From positions 186,001-250,000 of the forward strand of contig CACKFO010000001.1 in assembly GCA_902599405.1 (NCBI GenBank): a DNA stretch of 64,000 bases. Reading direction: 5' to 3'. The position numbers and the translations under genes were made by a program. This DNA comes from an uncultured Alphaproteobacteria bacterium (GTDB taxonomy: Bacteria > Pseudomonadota > Alphaproteobacteria > HIMB59). Within the stretch, counting starts at the first letter, position 1. The number at the start of each line of letters is the position of its first letter. Shown in pieces: positions 4,227-25,439 of this stretch. Below the pieces are notes generated by a model. It was given only the letters and a program-made list of their open reading frames with translations, was not told the origin of the DNA and did no database searches.

Positions 4227-6632
4227 TTAACCTCTGGTTAAGAAGTAATCAGAGATTCCAAGATCCATTAAATCAGCAATCACATTAATGATTTGATCTT
4301 TATGTTCTGGGCCCACTAAAATTCTATACATTACAGGATCAGAAACTAACGTTGGTCTTACTTCAACTCGAGTCCCTAATTTCTTAGAAATATCCGCGGC
4401 GACTATTTCAGAAACATTTTCTTTTTTAAAAGCACCAACTTGGATAAAAGCAGATTGATTTGGATCATACGAAGTCATCGACTCAATTTGGCCAGTTAGG
4501 CTATCTGTAAGTGCAGAAATTACAACTTGTTGATTTGGTTTCGGCTTTGATTTGACTTTAAAACTAGAGTCAAAAATAACATCAATGGCCTCTTCAAGAT
4601 TTTCATTTTCCTTAAAATTAAGAGCAGCTATGAGTGAGTCTAGCAGCTCTTCATTTACCACTTCCTCTGTGCTGATTATTTCCTCTAATTTTTCTTCCAA
4701 TGCCTGATTTAAAGCATTCAACTGCTCTTCATTAACAGTTTCTGTTTCTATGATTTTTTCTTCAGGTATTGATTTTTGATTTTGATCATTAACATCCCAG
4801 TTTAATGTGAATGTATCTGAAATATTTGTTATATCGTTACTGGCTTCAATAGTCAGATCTAGTGAACCAGCGCTTACAGGTGGGTTACCCACAAAAGTAT
4901 ATTGCGATGGTAAGAAAATAAGCCATGATGGTAAGATATCACCATTTGCCATTTTCACACTGTATCTGGTTTTTCCGCTACCTTCTAAGTAAAAAGACTT
5001 TTCATCAAATTTAAATATGAAATCAACAAAATTATAATTAGATAAATTAATATTATCCTCTGCAATCTTTGCTGTTTGAACAAGGACAGGGTTTTGATCA
5101 TTTAAAGGAATAGCTACAAATGAATTATATTTTTTGGTCCATTGGTTTAAGTTGTCTCTTAAAGCAATCGCTAAGTCTGCATCGCTAATTTCTGATAAAT
5201 TATTAGGTGTAAAATTCATGCCCACTGATGAATATAATGTACCAAGGCTGTATTGCATTTCAGCATACGCAATATCATTTCTTAGACGAGATACTAGTAA
5301 ACTAGCTTCTTCTCTGATCAATTCTAACTCACCAAATCGAGATATTTTTTGTGCATTGGATATCAGGTCATTAATTCTTTGAGCTACATTTAAATAGTGT
5401 TTTGCATTACTGTATTCTCGTAGAGTTTGTGCGTAGTTTATATTGGCAATATGTACTTGTGATAAAACAGTCATAGAGACTGCTAAACGCTGTTCTTCTA
5501 TAAGTTTCTCATTAATTTTATTGATATCATTTATGTTACCAGCTTGGAAAATATTCAATAAATTCGCTCCAAATACAGCACCGTATTCTGTATTGTCCTT
5601 ATTTAGTAAATATTTATTAGAGTCATAAGTCCATGTTGCGTTAAATTTTAAAGAGGGAAGCAGAGACAGCATTGATGCACGAGCTTCTTGAGCAGTAACT
5701 TTTTCTTGGTATCTTACTTCGAGTAACTCTGGTCTTGAAAATAAAGCTGCTTCTTCTTGTTCTTCTAAAGTCATGTTGAGCTCTGTTAACGGTTGGTCAG
5801 TTTTAACTAAAACATACTCTTGATTTGGCAACAAGCCGAGTAATTTAGATAGCTGTGCTCGTGAGTCCATTAAGGCTCGACGCTGTGTATTTAAAATTTG
5901 TAAAACATCTAAGAGTTCTTTTTGATAAAGTAATGCATCCATTGGAGAACTGATTAGAAGCTCTTCGATGTACTCATAATCATCTAATGCCGTATTGACT
6001 CGATCCATTAAAGGATTGATTTCACTCAACAACTCATCTGCTGAAAGTGTTTTCCAATACGCATAAATAACTTCTTTAGTTAAATTGTGGATAGCTTTTC
6101 GCTCGAGCTCTTTTGAGATTAAATATTTATCTGCTTGTTGACCTGCTCTAACATAAGACAAACCAAAATCTAAAGCATTCCAAGTAAAACCTATGTCGTA
6201 ATTATTGGAAGGTGTTTGCTGCGATAGCGTATATGTCGGACTATCTGCTATTTGTTCAGCTGCCTGATTATCCTCCCCGCCCTCAGAGGCCATATTAACA
6301 CTTGTTGAAGCAGGGTGCTTTTCTAAAACTTTATATCCCGCGTTGACTGATAATTTTGGTAGCATATCGAACTTCACCACATCCATTTGACCCTGACTTA
6401 AAGCAGAGTCCATTAAGTTTAATCTTAGATCGCGATTATTTTTAATGGCAATTGCAATTGCTTGATATAGGTCAATTTCAAGAGGCGCTGCTTCCGAAGT
6501 TTCTTTTAAATATTCATAGTCCTCTTGAGAGGATAATTGGACTTGCTCTTTAATTAGTGGTTCTGGCGTTTGACTGCACGCTCCCACTAATAAGACAAGA
6601 GACATTAATATAAGAGCTTTAAATAACTTCAT
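4227..6632 (-). CDS. TolC-family outer-membrane lipoprotein with Ig-like and SPOR domains
   Basis: Outer-membrane channel-type protein, probably the outer-membrane exit of the neighbouring exporter. The frame extends to 6665, but Met at 6632 gives a classical lipoprotein signal ending LVGAC, so I chose it (801 residues; Cys19 lipidated). Order, numbered from that Met: lipid anchor, two TolC/OEP repeats (about 40-490), an Ig/cadherin-like segment (about 540-640, with LPSWLIFLPSQYTF), a Glu-rich linker, and a C-terminal SPOR domain (about 727-801, with SAFIQVGAFKKEN and RILVGP). Normal TolC proteins are about 450-500 residues and have neither addition. SPOR domains bind denuded peptidoglycan. 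The LPSW.. segment resembles the C-terminal Ig-like domain of the divergent giant protein. It is transcribed divergently from that gene, with a shared palindrome between them. Confidence 0.82.
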   Translation of the reverse strand: MKLFKALILMSLVLLVGACSQTPEPLIKEQVQLSSQEDYEYLKETSEAAPLEIDLYQAIAIAIKNNRDLRLNLMDSALSQGQMDVVKFDMLPKLSVNAGYKVLEKHPASTSVNMASEGGEDNQAAEQIADSPTYTLSQQTPSNNYDIGFTWNALDFGLSYVRAGQQADKYLISKELERKAIHNLTKEVIYAYWKTLSADELLSEINPLMDRVNTALDDYEYIEELLISSPMDALLYQKELLDVLQILNTQRRALMDSRAQLSKLLGLLPNQEYVLVKTDQPLTELNMTLEEQEEAALFSRPELLEVRYQEKVTAQEARASMLSLLPSLKFNATWTYDSNKYLLNKDNTEYGAVFGANLLNIFQAGNINDINKINEKLIEEQRLAVSMTVLSQVHIANINYAQTLREYSNAKHYLNVAQRINDLISNAQKISRFGELELIREEASLLVSRLRNDIAYAEMQYSLGTLYSSVGMNFTPNNLSEISDADLAIALRDNLNQWTKKYNSFVAIPLNDQNPVLVQTAKIAEDNINLSNYNFVDFIFKFDEKSFYLEGSGKTRYSVKMANGDILPSWLIFLPSQYTFVGNPPVSAGSLDLTIEASNDITNISDTFTLNWDVNDQNQKSIPEEKIIETETVNEEQLNALNQALEEKLEEIISTEEVVNEELLDSLIAALNFKENENLEEAIDVIFDSSFKVKSKPKPNQQVVISALTDSLTGQIESMTSYDPNQSAFIQVGAFKKENVSEIVAADISKKLGTRVEVRPTLVSDPVMYRILVGPEHKDQIINVIADLMDLGISDYFLTRG

Positions 6633-6694
6633 TATTTTCCCGCAAAAAGCATGATAAAATCTCATAATTTAAGCTTTCAGACAATATAAAAATG

Positions 6695-6707
6695 ACCCAT
6701 ATTGGGT
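6695..6707. promoter_or_regulatory. Palindromic operator candidate ACCCA-TAT-TGGGT
   Basis: Perfect 5+5 inverted repeat with a 3-base spacer in the intergenic region between the divergent TolC-like and giant surface-protein genes. Allowing one mismatch it extends to eight bases per arm (ATGACCCA / TGGGTAAT). A site with the same core and spacing lies just upstream of the winged-helix regulator gene (27179-27191), and a degenerate one precedes the orphan gene at 24519. I infer a transcription-factor site controlling both divergent genes. Confidence 0.55.
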
Positions 6708-6776
6708 AATAAATTATAAAATAACCCTGATTTTATTGTATTATCCACTAGCTATATAAGAAGAGGAAAACGGGTT

Positions 6777-9700
6777 TTGGACAAAGATAACAAAAATTAT
6801 CCACAGCTACACATTCAGTTGTTAGAGCCAAGGATTATGTTCGATGGTGCTGCGATTTATACTGCAAGCGAAGCCTTGGACATGCTTGGTGATCAACAAT
6901 CACTGCAAGTTGATGAAAAAAATCTTTCCTCAGATTTAAATCCCATCATTGAAAATTCAAACTCCAGAAAAGAAATTGTTTTTATTGATAGTGGTGTAGA
7001 CAACTATCAAACTATCGTTGATGCAATTGACTCTTCTAAATCCATTTATCTTATCGACTCTAATGAGAATGGATTTGATAAAATGCAAAATGTTCTACAA
7101 GGACAGAGTGATGTTGATGCGGTTCATATAATAGGACACGCGAGTGCAGGACAAGTAGTCTTAGGTAATTCTATTTTAAATGCTGACACAATTAATTCTT
7201 TTAGTAACACCCTGCAGTCCATTGGAAATTCTTTAACACCAGACGGTGATCTTTTATTTTATGGTTGTAACTTAGCGCAAGGGGAACAAGGAAAATTACT
7301 CATTCAACAAATTGGAAATATCACACAAGCTGATATCGCAGCATCAGATGATGTGACTGGTAAAGATGGAGACTGGTTACTGGAAGTTGAAAAAGGAATT
7401 ATTGAAGCTAAGAGTTTAGAAGTTAATCATTACGACTCCAATCTTGTAAGTCTAGCTGGAGTCTCATCAAGTAGTGGTTTTGTTGTTGAGTCGGGGACTG
7501 ATTTGAGAGCAGGTCAAAATGCTGCGAACACAGCTTCTAACGCAAGTGATCACACAGATGGATACAAACCCTATGTTGTTGCTTTAGAGAGAGAGAATTT
7601 AACGACTGGTTCTTTTGACTTTTATAAACAAAGCATTACTGGCACGGGGTTTGACGAGAGCAATAGTGGTGTAGATAATAATAATAGCCCAGACATTACC
7701 TCCAACACAACGACAGTCACTGCCTCATCATCCAACCCTTTAAACGTCTACTATATTATGGCCACTGAAAGCACAGGAAGAACAACTGTGAGATCAATCA
7801 CGTTTGACGGCGAAATTGTTGGTGTTTGGTTCAATATGGAGAATATTATTGAGTATGGGACAGTTGATAAAGACAACACCACGTACCACACAATCAACCA
7901 GCACGGAAATGGTGGTAAAAATGCTTTTAGTACGGAAGGTCTTAAAACAAATTGGGGGACCAACATAACAATAACCTCAAAACCTATCGTAAGTGGACAA
8001 TCATACAAAAATGACTGGTTCGGTGTGGATACAGACTCTAATACTTTGTATGTAGGATTTAATAATAACAGCAAACACGGTGACGTCATCAGAGTGTTTG
8101 CTAAATCAGGTAACAATGCACCGGTAGCTGTTGATGACACAGATAGTGTTAATGAAGATGCAACGGTAACTAAAACATCTTCCCAAAACGATGCCCTTAA
8201 TGATGATAGCGATGCTGATGGAGATACAATCACTGTCACTCAAATTAAACCAAGTGGAGGATCTAACTCTGCTGTTTCGTCAGGGAGCTCCTACAATAGT
8301 AGTGGTACTACAGTAACTGGCACGTACGGCCAATTAACCATCGGCGCAGATGGTTCTTATACCTATACTGCAAACCAAGCTTTAGCAGACCCATTGGATG
8401 AAGGTACTGGGGGTAATGCAAGTGATACTGCTACTGACGAATTTGTCTATACAATTTCTGATGGCAACGGCGGAACAGATACTGCAACTATCACCATTAC
8501 AATAACAGGTGTTAATGACATCCCAACTGCTGTGAATGACTTCGGGGCGGTGACTGAAGACTTGACCATTACAATAAATAATAGTGAGAGTGGAAATCTC
8601 TCCGGTTCTTATGACACTCACGATGAGCACTCAGGTGACATTTTATCAAATGATACAGACCCCGATGCCTCACCTACTCACACCATTACTGCCGTTCGAA
8701 TTGGCTCTACAGCAGGATCGGGAACAGCAGGAACAGTTGGATCTGCATTAACGGGAACTTATGGTCAGCTGACTTTAAATGCTAATGGTTCGTATTCTTA
8801 CACTGCAAATCAAGATGCAGCAGATGCATTGGATGTAGGTGATACTGTTTCTGATTATTTTAATTACACGATGGATGATGAGCATGATGATACTAGCACT
8901 GCTGTTATAAGAATTTACGTATTAGGTGCCAATGACACCCCAGTTGCTCAAAATGATGAAGGTTTAATCTCTGAAGGCAGTACTTTAACAGTTTCAAATG
9001 GCGATAATGCTAATGTTTCGGGATCTTATGATGCTACTGGTGAACACACTGGTGATGTGATGGATACAAGCTCTAGTTCTCACAGTGACTCAGATGCAGA
9101 TGCTGATGCCAGCTTGGTCGTCTCAGCAATTCGAACAGGACGAGAAAGCGCTGCGGCTGCTACGTTTGTTGATAGCAAAAGCGTGCAATCTGGAATAACA
9201 GGAGGTATAGCCTTTAATACTGATGGCACCAAAATGTTTGTGGCGAATGTCGCTAACGATGATGTCGATGAATATACACTTTCCACCGGCTTTGATGTTT
9301 CAACAGCATCTTATGACAGTAATTTTAGTGTCGCCTCACAAGATGGAGGCCCCAACGGAATAGCTTTTAATACCGACGGTACAAAGATGTTCATTGCTGG
9401 AAAACAAACTGATAGTATTTATGAATATACTTTATCAACTGGCTTTGATGTTTCAACAGCATCTTATGACAGTAGTTTTAGTATCGCCTCTCAAGAAGGC
9501 TCAGTAACAGATTTAGCATTTAACACAGACGGAACTAAAATGTTTATTGTGGGAACAGATGACGATACCGTTGACGAATACAATCTTTCTACTGGTTTTG
9601 ATGTCTCAACTGCATCTTATGTAGATGGTTTCAGTGTTCAATCCCAAGAAACTGTTCCTACTGGTTTAGAATTTAGCGCTGATGGAAAAAGAATGTTTAT

Positions 9701-12700
9701 CACAGGTAACAATGGAGATGACGTTACTGAATATAAATTAACAACAGCCTTCGATGTCTCCACAGCATCACATGTCGGGCAATTCGATGTTAGCTCTCAA
9801 GAAACACAGGCTTCCTCTATAGCCTTTAATGCTGAGGGTACTAAAATGTTTGTTCTTGGGTACAACGGTGAAGATGTTAACGAATATAATTTAACCTCAG
9901 CGTTTCGCGTCGCAAATGATACGGGTAGTGTAGGTTCTGCATTAATTGGTGCATATGGTACCTTGACTATGAGCTCTGATGGATCTTACACTTATGCAGC
10001 CAACAGTAGCATTGAAGGGCTTGATTCAGGTGAGTCAGTTTATGATTACTTTACCTATACAGTTGATGACCAATTAAATGATAATTCAACGGATACCGCA
10101 GAATTAAAAATAACTGTGCTTGGTGCTGCAAATACTAAGCCAGTTGCTCGTGATGATGTGGGTGTTATTTTAGAAGATGGCACTCTTACAGTAAATGATG
10201 GTGATAATGCCAATGAGACAAGTGACTCTGGTACCACCTACAACGCAACCGGAGAGCATTCTGGTGATGTAATCAATACTAGTTCCACTACTCACTACGA
10301 TACAGACGCAGATGGAGACACACTAATTGTTACAAAGGTAAGAACTGGAAACACTGAAGACGCAGGAACAGCAGGCACAATTGGATCTGCGTTAACAGGA
10401 ACTTATGGTCAACTTACTCTCAATGCAAATGGTTCATATACTTATGTTGCTAATCAAACAGCAGCAGATGAACTTGATGATGGTGATATTGTTTACGATT
10501 ATTTTAATTACACTGTCGATGACCAAACGGGTGCAACCAATGATGAAGACCATGGTTTAATCACTATTACAGTGATTGGTATCAATGATGCCCCTACTGC
10601 TCAAGATGATGAGGGTGTGATTGCGGAGGGCAGTACTTTAACAGTTGCTAACAGTGCAAATGCAAATGTGTCAGGTTCCTATGATGCTACGGGAGAACAC
10701 TCCGGTGATGTCATTGATACAAGTTCTAGTTCACACACAGACTCCGATGCGGATGCTTCTTCATCTCTTAGCATTACTCATATTAAATTAAGCGGTGGTT
10801 CTAATTCAACGGTTGCTTCGAGCAGCTCTTATAATAGTAATGGAACTTCTATTACAGGTACTTACGGTACGTTAACCATAGGAGCTGATGGTTCTTATAC
10901 TTATGCTGCAACCACTGATGCTACTGATGCTCTTGATACCGGTGAGGAAGGCATTGATACTTTTGTTTATACCCTTTCTGATGGCACTGACATCGCAACA
11001 GCTAATTTAACCATTAAAGTTCTTGGAGACAATGATGCACCAGTTGCAAGAGATGATTCAGGAACAATTGTTGAAGACGGCACTCTTACAGTCAGTGATG
11101 GTGCCGGCAATAGTACTATAGCTGGGGCCTCTTATGTTGATAGTATCAACCTTTACATCTTAAGCGGTTATTCAGGAGGATACCCACAAGACATAAAATT
11201 TAACAACGATGGTACAAAAATGTTTGTTGTTGGAGATAGTACCGATGACATTCGAGAATACCATCTCACTACAGGCTTCGATATTTCAACCGCTTCCTAT
11301 GATAGTTTATTTAGTGTTGCTTCCCAAGATACCAACCCAAGAGGCTTAGCATTTAACAACGATGGAACAAAAATGTTTGTAGCAGGGTGGTCGAATCAAA
11401 GAGTTTTTGAATACCATCTCACTACAGGCTTCGATATTTCTACTGCATCCTACGATAGTAATTTAAGTATTTCTTCCAATGCAGGTGGTTCAAATGGTTT
11501 AGCATTCAATTCAGATGGTACAAAAATGTTTGTTAATGCTGCAAATTCTTCTGATGAAGTTGTTGAATACACACTATCGACCGGCTTTGATGTTTCCACC
11601 GCCTCCTATGATAGTAGCTTTGTAACCCAGTCCCAAGATACTTCACCTCAAGGCCTAGCATTTAGCAACGACGGAAAAAAAATGTTTGTTGCCGGCGATA
11701 CGGGAGATGATATTAACGAATATACGCTCTCTACGGGCTTTGATGTTTCCACTGCTTCTTTTGTGGGTAGTTTTGATGTGAGTTCTCAAGGTACTACGCC
11801 TACAGGCATTACCTTTAATAATGATGGAACAAAAATGTTTATTACGGACCGGTCAGGAAGTCTTGGCACACACAGTGTGGATGAATACACACTTACTACT
11901 CCTTTTAGTTTAGTTGATGTTAGCGGTGAACACACAGGTGATGTTATTGACTCAAGTAACACCTCTACTCGCGATACTGATGTTGACGTCGAAACGTTAA
12001 CGGTAACTGCTGTTCGTCTCGGCTCTTCTGAAGGATCAGGTACAGCTGGCACTGTAGGATCTGCTCTGACAGGCACCTATGGTCAATTAACACTAAACTC
12101 GAATGGTTCTTATACTTATGTTGCTAATCAAACTGCTGCAGACAATTTAGATGCAGGCGACGTTGTAACAGACACTTTTAATTACACAGTGAGCGATGGC
12201 ACCGATACAGATACAGCGGTGATCACTATAACTGTGATTGGTATCAATGATGCCCCTTCTGCTCAAAATGATGTGGGTGTGATCGTGGAAGATGGCACTT
12301 TAACTGTTACCAATGGTTCTAACGCAACTTTAACTGGAGACTCTTATGATGCTACGGGAGAAAACTCAGGTGATTTAATTGATACTAGCTCATCAAGCCA
12401 TACTGACTCAGACCTTGATACTTCTGCATCTTTGTCAATAACTCAAATTAAAAAAGATGGTGGATCTAATTCTGCCGTAGCAGTGGGAAGTTCTTATAAT
12501 AGCAGTGGTACACAGGTCACCGGAACATATGGAACACTTACTATCGGTGCTGACGGATCATACACCTATGCTGCAACTGCCGATGCGGCTGACCCATTAG
12601 ATGTAGGAGAGAGTTATACTGATGATTTTGTTTATACCCTTTCTGATGGTACTGCCACAACAACTGCAACACTAACTATTACCATTTTGGGCGCTAATGA

Positions 12701-18700: not shown

Positions 18701-20321
18701 TGGTTCTAGTGAAACTGATGTATTCACATACACAGTGACTGATGAAAACGGCGCTACAGCGACAGCTACACTAACAATCACAGTTAACGGATCAGATAAC
18801 GAGGTTGTTGGTGTGAATGATACAGGCGCAGTTGATGCAGGAAGCACTCTTTCTGTGACCCCTGATAGTGCGGGTTTGCTCTCAAATGACACGGATAACG
18901 GTGTAGCCGCTCTTAGTGTTGGCGAGGCATCTGTAACGGAGATACGAACAGGAAGAGAAAACAGAAGTGGTACCAGTGGCACTGTTGGATCAACTCTGAC
19001 TGGTACATATGGTACTTTAACTCTAAATTCAGACGGTACTTATACATATGTTGCAAATACTGATGCTGCCAAAGCAATAGCACCAGCTGACACAAAAATA
19101 GACTATTTTACATACACTATTAGTGATGGAACAAGTACCGATACAGCTCAACTTGCAATTACTGTGACTGGTATCAATGAAGCACCTACTTCCACAGCGC
19201 CTCCAACAATTCGTGCTGTTGAGAACCAGCCAATAAAGTTTCAGACAAAAATCTTTTTTGATGACCCAGACCCAAAGAACAATACTTATGGACAGCTTAC
19301 ATACTCTGTTTCTGGCTTGCCATCTGGTCTGACAATAAACGACAACGGAAGAATTAATGGAAAATTGAAAGAGGGAACTTACACATTTACAGTTACAGCG
19401 ACTGATGGTGGTAATCTTTCAACCTCGCAAACATTTACTATTGTTGTAGGAAAACCTCCACTTAAGGGTGAGCCACCACCACCACCCGTCGTTCTTAATA
19501 AGAAAACTATTGAAACTGCAATTGCTAATAAAATAGTTACTTTTGAAACACCGAAGACAGACAATAGAGTTAATGATTTGGAAGTTAGAAGCTCTCTCGC
19601 ATCTATAGTGAAGGAGTACACATTTAATGGTGGAATGAAAGTGATTGATGTTGCAGTTGAGGATCTGAATATCGATCAAAGTGGTAGACCAGGAGTCAAT
19701 GAAAATACAATTTTAGGTTTTGCTATTGGAGACGATTATAGATTAAACGTAAAACAATACACAGGCACATTAGAAGATGGTTCTGAACTACCCAACTGGA
19801 TACGTGTTGATCCTGCAACAGGTCAGACAATTGTTCAGTTTCCTGAGAGCGTATATTCAGTTGATGTAAAAGTTATTGCAATTGACACTGATAATACAAC
19901 TAGAGAAATTAACGTTACCCTTGATAAAAACTCTGTTAGCCGAGACACTGCATTAAAAAGAGATTTAGAGCCTTTTATTGATCGAAGCGCCGCTTTAAAA
20001 ACAGAAGTTACAGTAGATGAGAAAGGCCAAATAATATTGGAGTCAAATGATGGATCTAGAGATGACGTACTTAATCCAAATGACTCAAGCAATGATGATA
20101 ATCAAATAGAAGACCCAAATAATCAATCCAACCTAGAAAATGCTCCTGTTATACCTGAAATTATTGAGGAAACGCCTGCTCAAGACAATCTAGCTTTAGA
20201 TAACCAAAACCCTGAACTAGAGGAAAAAGTTGTAAAGTTTGCTTCTCTTCAAGATCAAATCGATTTAGAATTTGATGAACATGAAAATTATGGTGATAAA
20301 ATCCTTAAAGTATCTGGTTAA
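6777..20321 (+). CDS. Giant LEPR-motif / DUF4347 / VCBS-repeat surface protein with beta-propeller insertions
   Basis: Predicted secreted or surface protein of 4514 residues, probably an adhesin-like fibre. TTG start, with GAGGA about ten bases upstream; no upstream in-frame ATG, and the first downstream ATG would cut the N-terminal motif. Order: LEPRIMFDGAA at 16-26 with no Sec signal; DUF4347 at about 67-216 (HIIGHAS, LLFYGCN, ASDDVTG..GDWLLE); an unrecognised beta-rich region (about 226-444); 19 VCBS/cadherin-like repeats (about 445-4135), four of them interrupted by five-repeat propeller blocks; an Ig/cadherin-like domain (AVENQPIKF..SGLPSGLTI); a proline-rich linker; a second Ig-like segment (LPNWIRVDPATG); and an acidic Asn/Asp/Glu-rich tail. 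No RTX nonapeptides or LPXTG are seen. The end overlaps the next gene. The ligand is unknown. Confidence 0.9.
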   Translation: MDKDNKNYPQLHIQLLEPRIMFDGAAIYTASEALDMLGDQQSLQVDEKNLSSDLNPIIENSNSRKEIVFIDSGVDNYQTIVDAIDSSKSIYLIDSNENGFDKMQNVLQGQSDVDAVHIIGHASAGQVVLGNSILNADTINSFSNTLQSIGNSLTPDGDLLFYGCNLAQGEQGKLLIQQIGNITQADIAASDDVTGKDGDWLLEVEKGIIEAKSLEVNHYDSNLVSLAGVSSSSGFVVESGTDLRAGQNAANTASNASDHTDGYKPYVVALERENLTTGSFDFYKQSITGTGFDESNSGVDNNNSPDITSNTTTVTASSSNPLNVYYIMATESTGRTTVRSITFDGEIVGVWFNMENIIEYGTVDKDNTTYHTINQHGNGGKNAFSTEGLKTNWGTNITITSKPIVSGQSYKNDWFGVDTDSNTLYVGFNNNSKHGDVIRVFAKSGNNAPVAVDDTDSVNEDATVTKTSSQNDALNDDSDADGDTITVTQIKPSGGSNSAVSSGSSYNSSGTTVTGTYGQLTIGADGSYTYTANQALADPLDEGTGGNASDTATDEFVYTISDGNGGTDTATITITITGVNDIPTAVNDFGAVTEDLTITINNSESGNLSGSYDTHDEHSGDILSNDTDPDASPTHTITAVRIGSTAGSGTAGTVGSALTGTYGQLTLNANGSYSYTANQDAADALDVGDTVSDYFNYTMDDEHDDTSTAVIRIYVLGANDTPVAQNDEGLISEGSTLTVSNGDNANVSGSYDATGEHTGDVMDTSSSSHSDSDADADASLVVSAIRTGRESAAAATFVDSKSVQSGITGGIAFNTDGTKMFVANVANDDVDEYTLSTGFDVSTASYDSNFSVASQDGGPNGIAFNTDGTKMFIAGKQTDSIYEYTLSTGFDVSTASYDSSFSIASQEGSVTDLAFNTDGTKMFIVGTDDDTVDEYNLSTGFDVSTASYVDGFSVQSQETVPTGLEFSADGKRMFITGNNGDDVTEYKLTTAFDVSTASHVGQFDVSSQETQASSIAFNAEGTKMFVLGYNGEDVNEYNLTSAFRVANDTGSVGSALIGAYGTLTMSSDGSYTYAANSSIEGLDSGESVYDYFTYTVDDQLNDNSTDTAELKITVLGAANTKPVARDDVGVILEDGTLTVNDGDNANETSDSGTTYNATGEHSGDVINTSSTTHYDTDADGDTLIVTKVRTGNTEDAGTAGTIGSALTGTYGQLTLNANGSYTYVANQTAADELDDGDIVYDYFNYTVDDQTGATNDEDHGLITITVIGINDAPTAQDDEGVIAEGSTLTVANSANANVSGSYDATGEHSGDVIDTSSSSHTDSDADASSSLSITHIKLSGGSNSTVASSSSYNSNGTSITGTYGTLTIGADGSYTYAATTDATDALDTGEEGIDTFVYTLSDGTDIATANLTIKVLGDNDAPVARDDSGTIVEDGTLTVSDGAGNSTIAGASYVDSINLYILSGYSGGYPQDIKFNNDGTKMFVVGDSTDDIREYHLTTGFDISTASYDSLFSVASQDTNPRGLAFNNDGTKMFVAGWSNQRVFEYHLTTGFDISTASYDSNLSISSNAGGSNGLAFNSDGTKMFVNAANSSDEVVEYTLSTGFDVSTASYDSSFVTQSQDTSPQGLAFSNDGKKMFVAGDTGDDINEYTLSTGFDVSTASFVGSFDVSSQGTTPTGITFNNDGTKMFITDRSGSLGTHSVDEYTLTTPFSLVDVSGEHTGDVIDSSNTSTRDTDVDVETLTVTAVRLGSSEGSGTAGTVGSALTGTYGQLTLNSNGSYTYVANQTAADNLDAGDVVTDTFNYTVSDGTDTDTAVITITVIGINDAPSAQNDVGVIVEDGTLTVTNGSNATLTGDSYDATGENSGDLIDTSSSSHTDSDLDTSASLSITQIKKDGGSNSAVAVGSSYNSSGTQVTGTYGTLTIGADGSYTYAATADAADPLDVGESYTDDFVYTLSDGTATTTATLTITILGANDAPVARDDTGTINEGDTLTVNNDDNPSIVAGASFVDSFDSSSQEGTPTGLAFNNDGTKMFVVGFSSDAVNEYTLSTAFDVSTSSFVDAFTTSSQDGRATGIAFNNDGTKMFLTGYDGDDVNEYTLSTGFDVSTASFVDSFSVSSQEDNPSDLAFNSDGTKMFVVGITGDDINEYTLSTGFDVSTASYDSNFSVASQDIEPTGLTFSTDGKKMFVIGNTGNDVNEYTLSTGFDVSTASFVDSFDVSGQEGNPRAIAFNNDGTKMFILGNGGNDVNEYTLTSPFSLVNISGEHSGDVIDTNSTTNYDTDVDVETLTVTAVRKGSSEGAGDAGTVGSALTGTYGQLTLNSNGSYTYVANQAAAEALDAGDVVTDSFNYTVSDGTDTDTAVITITVIGVNDAPTAQDDVGVINEDAEFSVLDGANKNETGGSFNASGEHSGDVINTTSASHVDSDADASASLTITSIKKTGGSESAVAIGSSYNSNGTQVTGTYGTLTIGANGSYNYSANLDAADGIADGESVTDVFVYTLSDGTATTTANITITILGANDNPTAQNDEGVINEGSTLTVENSDNANVSGSYDASGEHSGDVINTTSSSHKDSDPDTSNTLSITHIKLSGGSNSTVASGSSYNSSGTAVTGTYGTLTIGADGSYKYVANSNISGLGDGQSVTDTFVYTIKDNANATTTANIVIKVLGLDSEGSGNNNPVATNNTNSVNEDATVSATDGSTGVTGDVLTNDTDADGDTLTVSAIQNSSGTSGTLGSGLTGTYGTLTINADGSYSYAADQSAADDLDSGDQVTDVFTYTVSDGNGGQDTATITITITGVNDAPVAVDDTDAVLEDATITKTGAQDDVLNDDSDADDSASLSVSNISHSNGNTGSVSSGSTYNSSSTQIVGTYGTLNIGADGSYTYTADQSAADDLDAGDVVTDVFTYTLTDGTTSDNQTATLTITVTGINDTPVAQDDVGVIAEDSTLTVTNGANANVSGSYDATGEHSGDVIDTSSSSHTDSDPDDSATLSVSQIRKDGGSDSSVSSGSSYDSSGTSVTGTYGTLTIGADGSYTYVADQAAADALDLNDSADDVFTYTLTDGTTSTTANITITVKGINDDPVAVNDTDTVSEGATVTKTGSQDDVLADDTDTDEDATLTVTAIQPSGGSSSNVSSGSTYQSSGTSVTGTYGTLTIGADGSYTYTADQAAADALDDTETATDTFTYTVTDENGATATATITITVNGSNDAPVARNDTGTVEEDATLTVSDGDNANAVSAATYVDAFDISSQEFNPQGFTFSNDGTKMFLTGNNGDDVNEYTLTTGFDVSTASFVDSFDISSQELGPRDLAFSADGTKMFVVGVLGDDVNEYTLSTAFDVSTSSFVDSFDISSQENSPTGLAFNNDGTKMFIAGNGGDDVNEYTLTTGFDVSTASFVDSFDVSSQDTAPNGLTFNSDGTKMYVVGNQGNDINEYDLTLGFDVSTASFVGALDVSSQDSAPKAISFNHDGTKLFVLGTTNKSVFEYTLTTPFSLINVDAEHSGDVIDTSNTSSYDTDVDVETLTVTAVRTGSSEGSGTAGTVGSALTGTYGQLTLNANGSYTYVANQSAADDLDAGDIVYDYFNYTVSDGDATDIAVITITVVGVNDTPVAVDDTDSVNEDATVTKTGSQDDALYDDTDADDSDSLTVSAIAPSSGSTSTVSEGSTYASGGTTVTGTYGTLTIGADGSYTYTADQSAADDLDLNDTATDVFTYTVSDGANTTTATITITVTGINDDPVAQNDVGVILEDSTLTVANSANANVSGSYDATGEHSGDVIDTSSSSHTDSDPDDSATLTVTQIKKDGGSNSAVSSGSSYDSSGTSVTGTYGTLTIGADGSYSYAADQSAADDLDKDDQVTDVFTYTLSDGTETTTANITITVIGINDTPTAVNDTDSVTEDERVTKTAVQDDVLKDDSDVDDSAVLTVSNISHTNGNSGTVSSSTTHLTGTTIVGTYGTLTIGSNGSYTYIADQDAADSIASGSSETDVFTYTVTDENGATATATLTITVNGSDNEVVGVNDTGAVDAGSTLSVTPDSAGLLSNDTDNGVAALSVGEASVTEIRTGRENRSGTSGTVGSTLTGTYGTLTLNSDGTYTYVANTDAAKAIAPADTKIDYFTYTISDGTSTDTAQLAITVTGINEAPTSTAPPTIRAVENQPIKFQTKIFFDDPDPKNNTYGQLTYSVSGLPSGLTINDNGRINGKLKEGTYTFTVTATDGGNLSTSQTFTIVVGKPPLKGEPPPPPVVLNKKTIETAIANKIVTFETPKTDNRVNDLEVRSSLASIVKEYTFNGGMKVIDVAVEDLNIDQSGRPGVNENTILGFAIGDDYRLNVKQYTGTLEDGSELPNWIRVDPATGQTIVQFPESVYSVDVKVIAIDTDNTTREINVTLDKNSVSRDTALKRDLEPFIDRSAALKTEVTVDEKGQIILESNDGSRDDVLNPNDSSNDDNQIEDPNNQSNLENAPVIPEIIEETPAQDNLALDNQNPELEEKVVKFASLQDQIDLEFDEHENYGDKILKVSG
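9162..9919 (+). repeat. Beta-propeller-like repeat block 1 (five units)
   Basis: Five tandem units of about 51 codons with the signature F-N-x-DGTKMF-x(10-11)-EYxLSTGFDVSTAS, resembling YncE/Lvp-type propeller blades. This block interrupts VCBS copy 3 late in the domain, between an IRTGRESAA strand and the GSVGSALIGAYGTLT strand. Blocks 2-4 interrupt their host domains earlier. Confidence 0.75.
11130..11920 (+). repeat. Beta-propeller-like repeat block 2 (five units)
   Basis: Five units with the DGTKMF signature, opening with SYVDS and closing with TTPFSLVDV. It sits in VCBS copy 6 between the SDGAGNS segment and GEHTGDVID, exactly where uninterrupted copies have a short VSGSYDAT loop. The first unit is slightly divergent (INLYILSGYSGGYPQ), and the last has a small insertion (DRSGSLGTHS). 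Confidence 0.75.
12795..13560 (+). repeat. Beta-propeller-like repeat block 3 (five units)
   Basis: Five units of 51 codons (153 bases), the most regular of the four blocks, opening with SFVDSFDSSSQEG and closing with TSPFSLVNI. It is inserted in VCBS copy 8 at the same point as block 2, just before SGEHSGDVID. Confidence 0.78.
16491..17257 (+). repeat. Beta-propeller-like repeat block 4 (five units)
   Basis: Five units opening with TYVDAFDISSQE and closing with TTPFSLINV, inserted in VCBS copy 15 at the same loop as blocks 2 and 3 (before AEHSGDVID). The spacing of host copies (3, 6, 8, 15) is irregular, so this is not one simple higher-order tandem duplication. Confidence 0.75.
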
Positions 20322-21018
20322 GACTGCTGTCTTAATTGTTTTGATGCTCTCTTATGCTAACGCTGAGGTAAGAGAGTCAAGAGCATTAGTCGTAGCCTCG
20401 CAAGAAGCTATTCTTTCCAGTGAGCTTGCTGCTCGAATAGAAAACATTGCTGTAAAAGAAATGCAAAGATTTAAAAAAGGGGATTTGTTAATTCAGTTTG
20501 ATTGTAGTTTATATGAAGCCCAAAAGGATGTTGTTAGCGCAAACGCTAATAGTGCTTTAATAAAACTAAAAAGTGATGAACAAATGCTACAAATGAGATC
20601 AATTGGTAAATATGAATTAGAATTATCAATTTCAGAATATGAAAAAGCGAAATCAGAACTCCGTATTGCTGAATTAAATGTTGAGAGGTGTCAGATTAAA
20701 GCACCTTTTGATGGAGCGGTGGAAGAAGTTGTGGTTAACACATTTGAAACAATTCAGCCTCAAGTAGAATTAATGAAAATCATCCAAACAGAAGTTTTAG
20801 AATTAGAGATGGTAGTTTCAAGCGAATGGATTTCTTGGTTAAAAATAGGACATCCCATTAAAGTTTATATTGATGAGATACAAAAAGAATTTAATGCCAC
20901 CATTAGTGGTATCGGTGCAAATGTAGATGCAGTTAGTCAAACTATTCAACTCAAAGGCACCATCACTGACACCAGCCCTGCCCTTCTTCCAGGAATGAGT
21001 GGTCGCGTTGTATTTTGA
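20275..21018 (+). CDS. Periplasmic adaptor (membrane-fusion) subunit, HlyD/RND-MFP type
   Basis: Small periplasmic adaptor with a signal peptide (about residues 7-30, cleaved near SYANA). The order is a first lipoyl half (ESRALVVASQEAILSSELAARI..KKGDLLIQFD), a short coiled-coil hairpin, the second lipoyl half (CQIKAPFDGAVEEV) and a beta-barrel ending in LPGMSGRVVF. At about 247 residues it is short for the family (usually 350 or more). Starts at TTG 20272, ATG 20275, 20281 and 20290 are all possible; all lie inside the end of the giant gene, so translation is probably coupled to it. I infer it links inner-membrane components to the TolC-like protein. Confidence 0.8.
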   Translation: MNMKIMVIKSLKYLVKTAVLIVLMLSYANAEVRESRALVVASQEAILSSELAARIENIAVKEMQRFKKGDLLIQFDCSLYEAQKDVVSANANSALIKLKSDEQMLQMRSIGKYELELSISEYEKAKSELRIAELNVERCQIKAPFDGAVEEVVVNTFETIQPQVELMKIIQTEVLELEMVVSSEWISWLKIGHPIKVYIDEIQKEFNATISGIGANVDAVSQTIQLKGTITDTSPALLPGMSGRVVF

Positions 21019-22349
21019 GTGAAGACCAATTAAATCGATTATCTAGAATTTTTTCTTTTGAGAAAAAGTTACGTGATGCTCAATCTTTTGTTGAAATACG
21101 ATACACAGTCACCAATGAACTTAGAAGTATCGCCCCATTTATGTATGCTTTTTTTGGATCTTGGACAAAACCAAATAGCTTTAAAATTGAGGCCATTTCA
21201 GATATTGCAGTAGTTGAGCAAACATCTGCTACAACCACGCTAGCTCAAAAAATCATTCGACAAAAATTACAAGAGGGTTCTCCTGAAACCCACCCCTTTT
21301 CTTTGAGTAAAGACGCATTGGTCCCTGCTAAAGGGGAAAGCCCTTTACCTGATCAATTTTTATGGGTTCCATGCTTTTCAACACAAAAAGGACCACAGGC
21401 TGTTTTATTATTAGTAAGAGACGAAAGCTGGACGGAACAAGAAATCGAATATATTCGACATTTAAGTAATTCCGTTGGACATGCAATGGGATCACTCAAA
21501 GAGAATAACTTTTTTGAAAGTGCTGCTAAATTAATTCGCAAGACATGGTTTCAATTTTTTGTTGTAGCTGGAATAGTTGCGAGCATGTTTTATCCTGTGT
21601 CTATGTCTACAATTGGACAGGCTGAAATAGCTCCTAAAGAACCAAATATAATTAATGCACCAATAGATGGAGTTATTAAAGAGGTATATGTTGAAAATAA
21701 TGATGAAGTGAATTTAGAAACTCCTTTATTGGAATTTGAAAAAACTCAACTACAAAACGACTATGATCTAGCCTTTCAAGAATTACAGGTAATCGAAACT
21801 GAGTTACTTCAAGCCAGACAATCTTCGTTCCAAAGTAAAGAGGATAAGGCTTTGGTGAGCCAGCTCGAAAGTAAAATAAAATTAGCACAAGAAACCCTCA
21901 ATTATCAAAAAATACTATTAGACAGGTCAACAATTTACTCTCCTGCTGAGGGCGTAGCCGTTTTACAAGATAAATCGTTGATCATAGGAAAGCCTTACAA
22001 TATTGGTGAAAACATTATGGTTGTTGCTAATCCCTCATTAGTGGAGGTTAATATTTTCATGCCAGTAAAAGACTCCATTACAATTAAAAAAGATGCCAAT
22101 ATTAATGTTTTTTTGGACTCTGATCCTATGAATGTTATCAAGGCTAAAGTTACAAAATTTTCATATGAGCCTGAAATTGTAACTCAAAACCTTCTTGCTT
22201 ACCGGGTAACCGCGGAGCTAATTGATAATGATACTCCACCTAGAATAGGGCTTAGAGGCACTGCAAAGATTTTTGGTGAGGAAGTAAAATTATTTTTCTT
22301 CTTATTTCGAAAGCCAATAATTTTTGTCAGACAGACACTTGGCTTGTAA
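21015..22349 (+). CDS. GAF-like domain fused to HlyD-type membrane adaptor
   Basis: Inner-membrane adaptor of 444 residues with an unusual cytoplasmic part. About residues 1-165 look like a GAF-type sensor fold (FVEIRYTVTNELRSI.., a central QFLWVPCFSTQKGPQAVLLLV strand pair, and a final helix QEIEYIRHLSNSVGHAM). One transmembrane helix follows (about 177-195), then a HlyD core: lipoyl half (IINAPIDGVIKEVYVENNDEVN), coiled coil (about 235-305), second lipoyl half (IYSPAEGVAVL) and barrel. A hydrophobic C-terminal stretch (LFFFLFRKPIIFV) may be a second membrane segment. The start is TTG at 21015, overlapping the previous stop by 4 bases. The GAF assignment is by general pattern only. Confidence 0.7.
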   Translation: MSEDQLNRLSRIFSFEKKLRDAQSFVEIRYTVTNELRSIAPFMYAFFGSWTKPNSFKIEAISDIAVVEQTSATTTLAQKIIRQKLQEGSPETHPFSLSKDALVPAKGESPLPDQFLWVPCFSTQKGPQAVLLLVRDESWTEQEIEYIRHLSNSVGHAMGSLKENNFFESAAKLIRKTWFQFFVVAGIVASMFYPVSMSTIGQAEIAPKEPNIINAPIDGVIKEVYVENNDEVNLETPLLEFEKTQLQNDYDLAFQELQVIETELLQARQSSFQSKEDKALVSQLESKIKLAQETLNYQKILLDRSTIYSPAEGVAVLQDKSLIIGKPYNIGENIMVVANPSLVEVNIFMPVKDSITIKKDANINVFLDSDPMNVIKAKVTKFSYEPEIVTQNLLAYRVTAELIDNDTPPRIGLRGTAKIFGEEVKLFFFLFRKPIIFVRQTLGL

Positions 22350-24452
22350 ATGATTACGCCTTCAATACGACAAAACTTACAACTTCTTCAAGGTACACCT
22401 ATGGAAGATGGGTCACCATCGTGGCTACTCTACGATAATTTAAGAAATAAATATTTTACATTAGGTGTAAATGCCTTTCGTATGCTCAAACATTGGATTG
22501 CAGGTGTGGATACAAAGCAATTTATTGAACAAGCACAACAAAAAGGTTTGGATATCGAAGAGGATCAGCTAAATGACTTTATCAATTTTCTAAAAACTAA
22601 TAGTTTGATTTCTCATAACAGTTCAGAAGATGTACAGATTTTATTGCATCAACATAATGCACAAAAAAAACATTGGTTTATGAATTTAATACATAACTAT
22701 CTATTCTTTAAAATTCCCTTAATTAAACCTGACCCTTTTTTAGATAAAACATTACACATAGCAAAATTTTTTGGCCAAAGATTTTTAAGACTATTGATCT
22801 ACATTATAGGTGTTATGGGCATTTATTTTGTCATCCAGCAATGGGATGAGTTCTTAACAACATTTTTATTTTTTTTTAATTGGAACGGTTTGTTGTTTTA
22901 CGCTTTTGCTTTAGTTGGTGTGAAAGCAATTCATGAATTAGGACATGCGTACACTGCAAAAAATTTTGGTTGTAATGTCAATTCCATGGGAATAGCGTTT
23001 CTTGTTTTTTTTCCTTTTTTGTATACCGATAACACTAATGCGTGGAGGTTAAGAGATCACAAAAAAAGACTATCTATAAACTTCGCAGGTATTTCCACAG
23101 AGCTACATCTTGCCTTATTGGCTACCTTTTTATGGGGGATTACAGACCAAGGAATGTTGAAAAGTATAGCATTTTTTGTTGCAACAACTGGCTGGATTTC
23201 CTCTTTGCTTATCAATATAAGCCCTTTTATGCGATTTGACGGGTACTATGTATTTGCAGATTATTTAAAAGTTGAAAATTTACAACCTCGAGCGTTTGCG
23301 CTGGCAAAATGGAAACTTCGTCAATGGATCTTTGGGTTTAAACACAAACCACCTGAGCAAATCAACATTCAAAAACAAAACTTAATCATTGTTTATGCTT
23401 GGGCAACTTGGATATACCGTTTCTTTTTATTTTTAGGGATAGCCTTATTGGTTTATTACTTTGCATTTAAACTTTTAGGTATCTTCTTATTTGTAGTAGA
23501 GATTGTGTGGTTTATTTTACTGCCTATTTTTAGAGAAATGCGTGAATGGTGGAGATTCCGTTCTAATATTTATCTCTCCTTACAATTCGTAAGGTCGATT
23601 CTTGTACTAGGCGCTTTGGCATTTGTTATATTTTATCCTTGGAAATCTTCTCAAAAAACTCCTGCAATATATCAATCTGAAAAATTTATAGAAATCTTCC
23701 CGCCAATTAATTCACAAGTCAAAGATATTTATATAATAGAAAAACAAATTGTAAAGGAAGATCAAAAATTAATTAATTTAGACTCACCTGCTTTAAACTC
23801 TGAAATAAAAATAGCTGTTGCAGAATTAGAATTGATAGAGATAAAAATAAATAATGCTTTAGATACAGAGAGCAATAGGTCTGATTTTCTACTTTTAAAA
23901 AGTGAAAGAAATAAATTTGAAACTCAAATTAATAATTTAAATAAAATCAAATCTTCTCTTAAAATCGTGGCCCCTTTCGATGGCGAAGTGACTAATTTAG
24001 GTAATTTAAAAGAACAGCAATGGCTAAATGAAGACACGGCAATACTTAAACTAGTAAATAAAAATAATTATCAAGTAATTGCCTTTGTATCTGAAAAAAA
24101 TATTTCTTCTTTAGATACCAACAAAGAAATTTGGTTCACCCCCTACTCGACATCACAAGACAGTATCGCTGCCTACGTTAATTCAATAAGTAAATCACCG
24201 ATTAATAATTTTGATATGTACCCCATGGTCACTTCAATATTTGATGGTCCGATTGCAGCTAGTGAAAATCCTTCAGGAGGTATTCGATCTGAACAAGCAT
24301 ACTACAAAGTCACATTAGACTTAGAGGATAATGCCTCAGCTATGGATAATAAAATACTTGGCTTTGTGAATATGGGGATAGAGTCAAAAAGCTACTTCAG
24401 CCGCTTTATTGACTTTGCATCAGCCACGTTAATAAGAGAGCTAAACTTCTAA
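22350..24452 (+). CDS. PqqD-like / M50 site-2 protease / HlyD-like fusion protein
   Basis: Polytopic inner-membrane protein of 700 residues resembling the 'putative peptide zinc metalloprotease' group. Residues about 5-90 have a PqqD-like pattern (GSPSWLLYDNLRNKYFTLG, AFRMLKHWIAG), the fold used as a RiPP-leader recognition element. Several transmembrane helices then carry an M50 active site: HELGH at 195-199 (His195, Glu196, His199) and Asp297 in SPFMRFDGYY. After more helices (to about 435) a periplasmic adaptor-like part follows (about 445-690), with PPINSQVKDIYI and VAPFDGEVTNLGN as lipoyl halves flanking a coiled coil. It begins at the base after the previous stop. I infer that it recognises, processes or guides the giant protein; the catalytic residues look intact. 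Confidence 0.8.
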   Translation: MITPSIRQNLQLLQGTPMEDGSPSWLLYDNLRNKYFTLGVNAFRMLKHWIAGVDTKQFIEQAQQKGLDIEEDQLNDFINFLKTNSLISHNSSEDVQILLHQHNAQKKHWFMNLIHNYLFFKIPLIKPDPFLDKTLHIAKFFGQRFLRLLIYIIGVMGIYFVIQQWDEFLTTFLFFFNWNGLLFYAFALVGVKAIHELGHAYTAKNFGCNVNSMGIAFLVFFPFLYTDNTNAWRLRDHKKRLSINFAGISTELHLALLATFLWGITDQGMLKSIAFFVATTGWISSLLINISPFMRFDGYYVFADYLKVENLQPRAFALAKWKLRQWIFGFKHKPPEQINIQKQNLIIVYAWATWIYRFFLFLGIALLVYYFAFKLLGIFLFVVEIVWFILLPIFREMREWWRFRSNIYLSLQFVRSILVLGALAFVIFYPWKSSQKTPAIYQSEKFIEIFPPINSQVKDIYIIEKQIVKEDQKLINLDSPALNSEIKIAVAELELIEIKINNALDTESNRSDFLLLKSERNKFETQINNLNKIKSSLKIVAPFDGEVTNLGNLKEQQWLNEDTAILKLVNKNNYQVIAFVSEKNISSLDTNKEIWFTPYSTSQDSIAAYVNSISKSPINNFDMYPMVTSIFDGPIAASENPSGGIRSEQAYYKVTLDLEDNASAMDNKILGFVNMGIESKSYFSRFIDFASATLIRELNF

Positions 24453-24459
24453 ATTAGTG

Positions 24460-24472
24460 GCTCATTTTGGGT
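24460..24472. promoter_or_regulatory. Degenerate copy of the ACCCA-N3-TGGGT palindrome
   Basis: GCTCA-TTT-TGGGT, with the right arm extending to TGGGTCAT, the exact reverse complement of the left arm ATGACCCA at 6692-6699. It lies between the M50 gene stop and the orphan gene at 24519, about 47 bases ahead of it. Two mismatches in the left arm make it weaker than the sites at 6695 and 27179. Confidence 0.35.
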
Positions 24473-24518
24473 CATAAATAACAAAAAAGCTATTAAAATC
24501 AGTGTATTATGTCGTCCT

Positions 24519-25439
24519 ATGATTATTTTGCACCAGTCGATGAAAGATCAGTTTCAAAAAGAAACTGGAAAAAAAATAAGCTCTCCAAGCTCATTTTTCA
24601 AATCTAAATGGCTAGAAGAGCAAGATCAAAAGAAAACTTTTGATCACTTAAATAGCGCTGAGCTTAGTGACGTAATAAAAGAAAGACTATTTTTTAAAAG
24701 CTCTAAAGCTACTGATTATGATCGTTTCACAGAAATGCTTGATTTTAAGAGATCAAGTGACTTTAAGATCTTTGCTAAGCTGACAGCAATTATCAAGACG
24801 TATCAGAAATTAGAATTTCAAAAAATCTCACAAGAGTTAGAGGCATTAGATTGCCTGTACTCAATTCAAAATAAAAAAGTGATGAATCATCAAATGGTCA
24901 AATCACTTACCCAAAGTTTAAAACAGATAGAAAAACATTGTCAGAAGATCAAAAAAGAGATTAGCCAATCTTTAAAAAAAAGTCGCCTTAAACATGGAAT
25001 GAGCCCAAGTGAAATTATTTTAAAAGACGCAAGTGGCGCTGATATATCCTCTACAAGTATATTTGATGAATTTTCAATAATAGCTAAGGAATGCCAATAT
25101 CTTTCTGAAGCAAATAGTTCATTTGAAAATACCGAGCCTTCTTTGTTTCCAAGTTTAGAGATACAGGAAATACCTTTAGATTATTATATAGTGACACTAA
25201 AAAACTTATTTCAATGCATTGATTTGGGTCAATTTAAAATTCAGGATCAACAATCTGAATTAAAAACTTTTTGTTGGGAGGGCATACTCCAAACACCCTC
25301 AATATGTTTTACCCCTTATTCATCCTTTTTAAAGGCTTACAAAAGATGTAACGAAAAGAAAAATACTTTTTTTAGTCTGTCACAAGCAATCTCAAAAAAT
25401 GACTTTTACGAGATAAGAGATAAAATTCTAAATTTCTAA
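24519..25439 (+). CDS. Uncharacterised protein next to the export cluster
   Basis: I do not recognise this 306-residue protein. It is hydrophilic, rich in Lys, Ser and Gln, with no signal peptide or membrane helix, and its middle (about 85-160) looks helical and possibly coiled-coil. It lies on the same strand as the export genes, 66 bases after the M50 gene, and ends converging with the MFS gene (4-base overlap). The start is uncertain: ATG 24519 and ATG 24540 are in frame, neither has a good Shine-Dalgarno, and an overlapping short frame starts at 24509 and runs to an A8 tract. Co-location suggests a cytosolic accessory role in the export system, but nothing in the sequence shows that directly. 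Confidence 0.6.
   Translation: MIILHQSMKDQFQKETGKKISSPSSFFKSKWLEEQDQKKTFDHLNSAELSDVIKERLFFKSSKATDYDRFTEMLDFKRSSDFKIFAKLTAIIKTYQKLEFQKISQELEALDCLYSIQNKKVMNHQMVKSLTQSLKQIEKHCQKIKKEISQSLKKSRLKHGMSPSEIILKDASGADISSTSIFDEFSIIAKECQYLSEANSSFENTEPSLFPSLEIQEIPLDYYIVTLKNLFQCIDLGQFKIQDQQSELKTFCWEGILQTPSICFTPYSSFLKAYKRCNEKKNTFFSLSQAISKNDFYEIRDKILNF

Follow-up and report, generated by a model that had tools for sequence, protein, structure and literature searches.

A candidate M50 protease-adaptor cassette for giant repeat proteins with an N-terminal LExR-xMFD motif

Genes and domains of the locus

The window analysed here, a stretch of 64,000 nucleotides from an uncultured alphaproteobacterium of the HIMB59 lineage (contig CACKFO010000001.1, positions 186,001 to 250,000; assembly of 1.26 Mb, 89% complete), contains a gene for a TolC-type lipoprotein, a gene for a giant protein and three adaptor genes that overlap or abut one another and encode HlyD, GAF-transmembrane (TM)-HlyD and M50 protease-HlyD proteins, respectively. 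This set (referred to below as the cassette) and a short N-terminal motif of the giant, which was found to accompany the M50 gene across genomes, are the subject of the present analysis. The genes had been named in an earlier, model-made reading of the window (the original prediction), and the TolC lipoprotein, the 4,514-residue giant and the three adaptor genes were all confirmed as real.

The giant, presumably the exported substrate, is encoded by a single open reading frame (ORF; 6777..20321, + strand) with an N-terminal LEPR motif, a DUF4347 domain and VCBS/cadherin-like repeats, as identified from its translation and by Pfam and NCBIfam. The signal-like motif LEPRIMFDGAA occupies residues 16-26 (6822..6854, +; position checked, consensus of 42 sequences) and precedes DUF4347 at residues 67-213 (6975..7415, +; Pfam 1e-45, alignment of 15). 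No Sec signal was seen by eye, and a pattern search of the giant returned neither RTX nor LPxTG matches, in line with the original prediction. The C-terminal tail (FASLQDQI...YGDKILKV; 20238..20318, +) is of a type that recurred at the end of many giants when C-termini were compared by eye. Beyond the VCBS/cadherin units, the giant contains four blocks of five repeats of the type FNxDGTKMFVVGxxGDDVNEYTLSTGFDVSTASF with a spacing of 51-52 residues (residues ~813-1070, 1475-1730, 2026-2280 and 3258-3510; 20 pattern matches), which appeared propeller-like by eye and for which no Pfam family was named.

Divergent from the giant lies the gene for a TolC/OprM-type outer-membrane factor (4227..6665, -), a lipoprotein with an LVGAC lipobox (by eye) and C-terminal He_PIG and SPOR domains (Pfam: OEP 6.5e-23, He_PIG 4.5e-6, SPOR 2.2e-4). 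SPOR, which the original prediction had listed as belonging to the system, was thus present in the window, but was rejected as a general part since only one of nine other TolCs carried it. The He_PIG domain resembled the C-terminal region of the giant (LPxWLxFDPxTG type, by eye), which may mean that channel and presumed cargo have a domain in common; an ORF in locus L113 matched both (G and L numbers are sample handles for genomes and loci, respectively).

The 3' end of the giant gene shares 50 bases with the ORF of a small periplasmic HlyD-type adaptor with a Sec-like signal (20272..21018, +; signal by eye; HlyD_D23 of Pfam 8.6e-15, RND_mfp of NCBIfam 112 bits). It is followed by an inner-membrane adaptor (21015..22349, +) composed of a cytosolic GAF-fold domain (residues 1-163; fold confirmed), one TM helix and HlyD, and by the M50 intramembrane metalloprotease (22350..24452, +), which combines an N-terminal domain of PqqD/RRE-like strand-helix order with a fused periplasmic HlyD adaptor (residues 432-700). 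Its HExxH zinc motif, HELGH (residues 195-199; 22932..22946, +), was invariant in 17 aligned homologues, as were the individual catalytic residues H195, E196, H199 and D297 (HExxH and second Asp motif). All 17 proteins matched Pfam M50 at E <= 0.05, and an AF2 model placed HExxH and the second Asp within membrane helices, as in site-2 proteases. Because the catalytic residues were kept in all aligned sequences, the M50 core is probably an active protease. Models of proteases for ribosomally synthesised and post-translationally modified peptides (RiPPs) also matched the homologues (daptide_HExxH 17 of 17, YydH/LiaK 13 of 17). In the AF2 model the N-terminus followed a b-b-b-a-a-a order that fits PqqD/RRE, and the adaptor halves were of the MacA/EmrA/MexA-type fold; the Foldseek and VIA lists for the M50 model were filled by the adaptor half and by biotinyl/lipoyl domains, so that fold comparison says little about its N-terminal and M50 parts.

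Two ORFs within a few kilobases of the cassette (1243-2461), one sigma-factor-like and the other of cupin type, resembled, by eye, an extracytoplasmic function (ECF) sigma/ChrR-type anti-sigma pair.

Co-occurrence of the motif and the M50 gene

A profile of 22 residues, built from 31 N-terminal motifs of the type LE(P/S/Q)R-x-M-F-D-(A/G)-A, and the M50 protein were searched in the same set of 337 alphaproteobacterial genomes, own genome included (class sample). M50 matches were obtained in 33 of the 337, and M50-positive genomes were defined by E <= 2.4e-49, leaving out nine weak matches (E 1.8e-7 to 5.9e-4), most of which lay on the adaptor half. The motif was present in 21 of 24 M50-positive genomes versus 0 of 313 others, with a clear gap between the 21 genomes (E <= 1.5e-4) and the next match (0.017), and the motif-positive genomes spanned 15 families by their labels. 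Excluding the 14 genomes whose giants had trained the profile, the numbers were 7 of 10 and 0 of 313, respectively, with four of these seven (G104, G293, G325 and G330) sharing their genus with training genomes and having an identical or almost identical motif. In a phylum sample of 234 genomes, 79 matched the M50 query overall; 56 were counted as strong (E <= 1e-90), and 23 matches were left out (10 at E 1e-18 to 1e-48, 13 weaker). Here the motif was found in 55 of the 56 strong-M50 genomes versus 1 of 178 others. Three M50-positive genomes (own, G102 and G136) and some negative ones are present in both samples, and Fisher values for the motif-M50 association are not true probabilities since the genomes share kinship. 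These counts agree with the original prediction that adaptor genes and giant form one machine; the opposite outcome, M50 genes occurring mostly without a motif-bearing giant, was looked for and the contrary was found.

In a set of 80 close relatives that includes the own genome, 26 contained both the M50 gene and DUF4347, three the M50 gene only (G003, G015 and G043, all <= 66% complete), four DUF4347 only and 47 neither; a weak HlyD-only match in G053 was left out of the counts. Relative G029, a single contig that is 99% complete, had neither the M50 gene nor DUF4347.

The substrate marker is the LExR-xMFD motif and not DUF4347. In 29 DUF4347 loci read from the class sample, the motif lay ahead of DUF4347 in 16 of the 18 belonging to M50-positive genomes versus 0 of the 11 belonging to M50-negative genomes. 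The two M50-positive exceptions still bore the motif, which lay in a different frame some 2 kb upstream in G370 and, in G408, ahead of the domain in a second DUF4347 giant located on a different contig. ORFs with 8 to 41 RTX patterns occurred at 8 of the 11 M50-negative loci (G263, G396, G357, G345, G194, G106, G377 and G159), and within the stretches examined none was found around DUF4347 in the other three genomes (G143, G169 and G276). Conversely, 47 of 49 motif-bearing ORFs, mostly pieces of giants, had no RTX pattern, and the other two had one and four. In L200, a Micavibrio assembly that seems to be identical to G346/L098, motif-bearing giants (LEKRLMLDAS) adjoined a complete cassette, and G346 gave no DUF4347 match despite these giants. 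The original prediction had used DUF4347 and the LEPR motif jointly as marker; the motif half held, in its LExR-xMFD form, whereas DUF4347 was rejected, being present without the motif in M50-negative genomes, where it lay within or next to RTX-rich ORFs in 8 of 11 cases.

In the alignment of 15 DUF4347 domains a Cys after a hydrophobic strand was invariant and a His was present in most members (HIxSHG ... LLYGC), a pattern resembling that of the clan CD (caspase-like) peptidases. Chain G of PDB entry 9QPE was matched as a DUF4347 protein (E 9.8e-5), which also counted against the domain as marker, and the accessible part of the paper containing this code deals with type VI effector loading (PMC13323088). 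DUF4347 in the giant is read as a cargo domain rather than an export signal.

The LEPR-XLL model (NF012209) shows that a related motif had already been noticed by NCBIfam curators. These proteins likewise have a short LEPR motif near the N-terminus, but the one strong match seen (G367) starts in a LEPRxLLSAD-like manner, in contrast to LExR-xMFD-(A/G)A here. The window giant scored 13.5 bits as a protein and 20.4 bits in a six-frame search (cut-off 17 bits), and as a whole-genome marker the model was too noisy, being above cut-off in 28 of 337 genomes. In the phylum sample a divergent M50-HlyD group was seen (~22-30% identity, E 1e-34 to 1e-55). G367 carries a divergent M50-HlyD protein of 813 amino acids with HlyD neighbours and, on another contig, the LEPR-XLL-type start KLEPRLLLSADPV (contigs C79 and C161; L249 and L248); together with the divergent group, this co-occurrence is a hint that LEPR-XLL giants may use a sister system.

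Distribution of the cassette and search for a motor

A scan of named genomes gave at least 592 places with a match, of which the best 80 were analysed; these included loci from Pelagibacteraceae, Marinobacterium, Marinomonas, Nitrospira, Nitrosomonas, Azospirillum, Pectobacterium and others. The closest among the matches listed were from uncultured alphaproteobacterial single cells or metagenome-assembled genomes, followed by Pelagibacteraceae. Four of the 80 loci had no called M50 ORF; in the remaining 76, many of them partial, the M50 gene was linked to GAF-HlyD in 73, small HlyD in 56 and TolC in 44. A motif-bearing protein lay inside 27 of the 80 loci, and in most others the giant or its start lies beyond the available sequence. 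Locus L188, cut off upstream, contained one uncut large ORF without the motif and with a Sec-like signal (by eye), downstream of the M50 gene.

Plasmid records matched in 65 cases at E <= 1e-20 (including 18 from Escherichia, 13 from Azospirillum and 8 from Citrobacter), and the cassette could be annotated on plasmids of E. coli, Kosakonia and Azospirillum. On the E. coli MS 115-1 plasmid the order was giant, TolC, adaptor, HlyD of GAF-type length and M50-HlyD, the giant (4,459 amino acids) having LESRQLFDGAA, DUF4347 and Ig/cadherin repeats. Complete E. coli genomes contained a near-identical M50 gene in 24 of 5,426 cases (22 of these over >= 80% of its length). Two E. coli IncFIA/IncFIB plasmids (L207 and L208) carried a complete cassette adjoining IS1 elements. 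In public annotation the M50-HlyD protein usually appears as 'HlyD family efflux transporter periplasmic adaptor subunit'. In G370 the cassette was split on one 5.9-Mb contig (C1), with GAF-HlyD and M50 about 3 Mb apart from TolC, small HlyD and the motif giant (sites near 1.63 Mb and 4.82-4.85 Mb; L099, L219 and L251). The tails of the giants, compared by eye, were of an FxxQL...LLxxL type in many Proteobacteria and contained a membrane-anchor-like stretch in Nitrospira and Nitrosomonas.

Further genes near the cassette were surveyed in 103 loci (some genomes twice) by blastp clustering of the ORFs of 100-900 amino acids located no more than 6 kb from M50. The 14 largest clusters consisted of giant pieces, stand-alone ABC (ATP-binding cassette) ATPases and single-lineage genes, and no non-cassette family among them recurred across lineages; one small cluster of response-regulator-like ORFs spanned four loci. 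A hidden further conserved cassette gene was rejected on this basis for ORFs of that size range. The ORF at 24519-25439 was rejected as a cassette part, having homologues in 2 of 35 loci. A convergent Atg22-like gene of the major facilitator superfamily (MFS) lies at 25436-26656, with similar genes in a cluster from 6 of the 103 loci, all of the window's order as judged by handles or titles.

No ORF of at least 500 amino acids with an ABC signature was present in the cassettes read, the sole match to a crude pattern (a 548-residue GAF-HlyD) being false. Loci of Pelagibacteraceae, Nitrospira, Azospirillum, Pectobacterium and the E. coli IncF plasmids all had the cassette with no adjoining ABC exporter of HlyB/PrtD size. 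The original prediction would have been refuted had a linked bacteriocin or ABC system always accompanied the genes; no HlyB/PrtD-sized ABC recurred beside M50, and bacteriocin families were not profile-searched. Stand-alone ABC ATPases of 220-379 amino acids lay within 6 kb of M50 in 16 of 103 loci, eight of them in the window's genus. The one at 28852-29616 was rejected as a motor: its best match, HisP, was below that model's cut-off, and same-place homologues occurred in eight loci of the genus. Two ABC_membrane genes were identified in the own genome, the second with a score short of the Pfam cut-off; their best NCBIfam models were MsbA and PglK, neither reaching its curated cut-off. Ten relatives (six M50-positive, four M50-negative) had one to three such genes each, with no open frame above 612 amino acids. 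On account of these numbers a dedicated ABC exporter of type I secretion system (T1SS) kind for the giant is unlikely, though a general one may be recruited. In the loci read, no ABC, resistance-nodulation-division (RND) or MFS motor was seen as part of the cassette.

Proposed function and alternatives

Many bacteria possess giant surface proteins that lack RTX repeats, and type I secretion is the route by which these are usually supposed to leave the cell. With T1SSs (HlyB-HlyD-TolC, including those of RTX and LapA/BapA/SiiE-type adhesins) the locus shares a giant repeat adhesin, HlyD adaptors and a TolC-type factor, but differs in that no ABC exporter was seen in it, that it has three adaptors (one with GAF, one with M50), and that its giants bear an N-terminal motif and almost no RTX. 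The N-terminal domain and M50 core are like those of the daptide and epipeptide (YydH/LiaK) RiPP proteases (NF041824, NF058609); unlike these, the window protein is fused to a periplasmic HlyD and stands beside a giant, and it scored 130 bits against a daptide cut-off of 300. Similarly, the adaptor halves have the fold of the MacA/EmrA/MexA adaptors of tripartite efflux pumps, but are joined to a protease or GAF domain, and no MacB, EmrB or RND partner was noticed in the locus, which was read without a profile search for these. No description of the cassette was found in a full-text literature search, with subscription papers and preprints outside its reach. Papers containing a LEPR-XLL-related term were, in their accessible parts, not about export machinery (one being a chicken genome paper, PMC10700341), the sole mention of M50 in the accessible part of a tripartite-pump review (PMC8277102) was a residue number, and the portion available of a paper on DDxP proteins (PMC7730722) contained no LEPR.

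Taken together, the cassette probably encodes a dedicated tripartite machine that exports and processes giant, repeat-rich surface proteins bearing an N-terminal LExR-xMFD-(A/G)A signal, with the protease as its inner-membrane component. The giant would be made without a Sec signal, and M50-HlyD would recognise the motif at the inner membrane, most likely by its small RRE-ordered N-terminal domain. The presence of a RiPP-type, leader-reading protease joined to a periplasmic adaptor, and of substrates marked as a class by a short motif at the N-terminus, suggests that the motif is a leader; given the RiPP protease kinship and intact catalytic residues, the M50 active site may cut in or beside it, much as the related RiPP leader proteases presumably do, and this could happen before, during or after passage. 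The three HlyD-type adaptors (periplasmic, GAF-tied and M50-tied) could form a mixed ring docking on the TolC lipoprotein. The giant would then exit, and its conserved C-terminal tail, or the anchor-like tail of the Nitrospira and Nitrosomonas types, may hold it at the cell. As the recurring or anchor-like tails would suit a C-terminus held back, one may speculate that export proceeds N-terminus first, as a mirror image of LapA.

One alternative is that an ABC exporter encoded elsewhere drives translocation, with the M50 and GAF adaptors merely processing or regulating, that is, a T1SS with an unlinked motor. HlyD and TolC are indeed T1SS scaffold, T1SS parts are unlinked in some organisms, as stated for Legionella in the accessible part of PMC7730722, and besides the MsbA-like and PglK-like exporters of the own genome the ABC_membrane frames of the relatives (up to 612 amino acids, untyped) are long enough for a PrtD-type exporter. 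This is nevertheless unlikely, as the cassettes read have three adaptors yet no HlyB/PrtD-sized ABC gene, M50-positive and M50-negative relatives share the same small set of ABC_membrane genes, and the giants have an N-terminal hallmark with RTX repeats almost absent. It is distinctly improbable that M50 is a release protease, the giant reaching the periplasm or surface otherwise and being held by its N-terminus at the inner membrane until a GAF-gated cut frees it, like LapG acting on LapA. M50 enzymes are site-2 proteases, and a GAF sensor on an adaptor would be consistent with regulated release, but no long hydrophobic anchor was visible by eye in the motif region, and the protease is joined to an adaptor and encoded within a TolC/adaptor set. 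Very improbable indeed is a role of the adaptors in serving a small unseen peptide or RiPP with the giant as a mere neighbour: the kinship of M50 with RiPP leader proteases and weak scores of bacteriocin-export adaptor models on the adaptor proteins speak for it, whereas motif and M50 gene co-occur phylum-wide, and the 14 largest clusters of ORFs of 100-900 amino acids near M50 revealed no other family recurring across lineages.

Several observations weigh against the dedicated machine proposed here. The motif cut-off in the phylum sample (E <= 0.0031) was picked post hoc; with a limit of E <= 0.05, 60 genomes counted as motif-positive, of which 55 were M50-strong. M50 occurred without the motif in G171, G205, G367 and G606 (the M50 gene being cut at the end of a 5-kb contig in G171, on a 15.7-kb contig in G205 and in two pieces in G367), G613 of the phylum sample had the motif without an M50 match, and the close relatives G023 (93% complete), G036, G046 and G047 had DUF4347 without one. 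The motif-bearing giant of G286 has four RTX-pattern matches in a frame of 6,371 amino acids. Regarding the PqqD-M50-HlyD fusion of the original prediction, the M50-HlyD part stands and PqqD is unconfirmed: the RRE/PqqD domain lacked profile support, with no Pfam PqqD match in the 17 homologues and none among the PDB matches. As to the motor, the second-best model of the PglK-like exporter was that of the T1SS protein LssB (211.8 bits, cut-off 693), the own genome, being 89% complete, might encode a T1SS ABC in the portion that is absent from the assembly, and no RND or MFS motor was noted as a cassette part, these families not having been searched by profile genome-wide. We know of no precedent for motor-free translocation of a 4,500-residue chain. 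Export, cleavage and surface location of the giant are predictions from sequence, and so is a translocase role of the M50 protein in place of an ABC transporter, as supposed in the original prediction.

A bolder reading, an ABC-free, TolC-dependent secretion class in which the motif is read and cut by an M50 protease that doubles as channel adaptor and GAF controls assembly, is put forward tentatively, as a possibility that falls somewhat short of probable. Such a class would span Proteobacteria, Nitrospira and enterobacterial plasmids. Should export work without an ABC motor, one would have to ask what powers the movement of chains of 2,000-10,000 residues. With a short motif at the N-terminus predicting the protease-adaptor set in each genome, RTX-less giants gain a testable export route, and the cassette is present in culturable bacteria and hence accessible to gene deletion. 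If the proposal is true, bacteria would possess a means of building their surface that has so far gone unrecognised.

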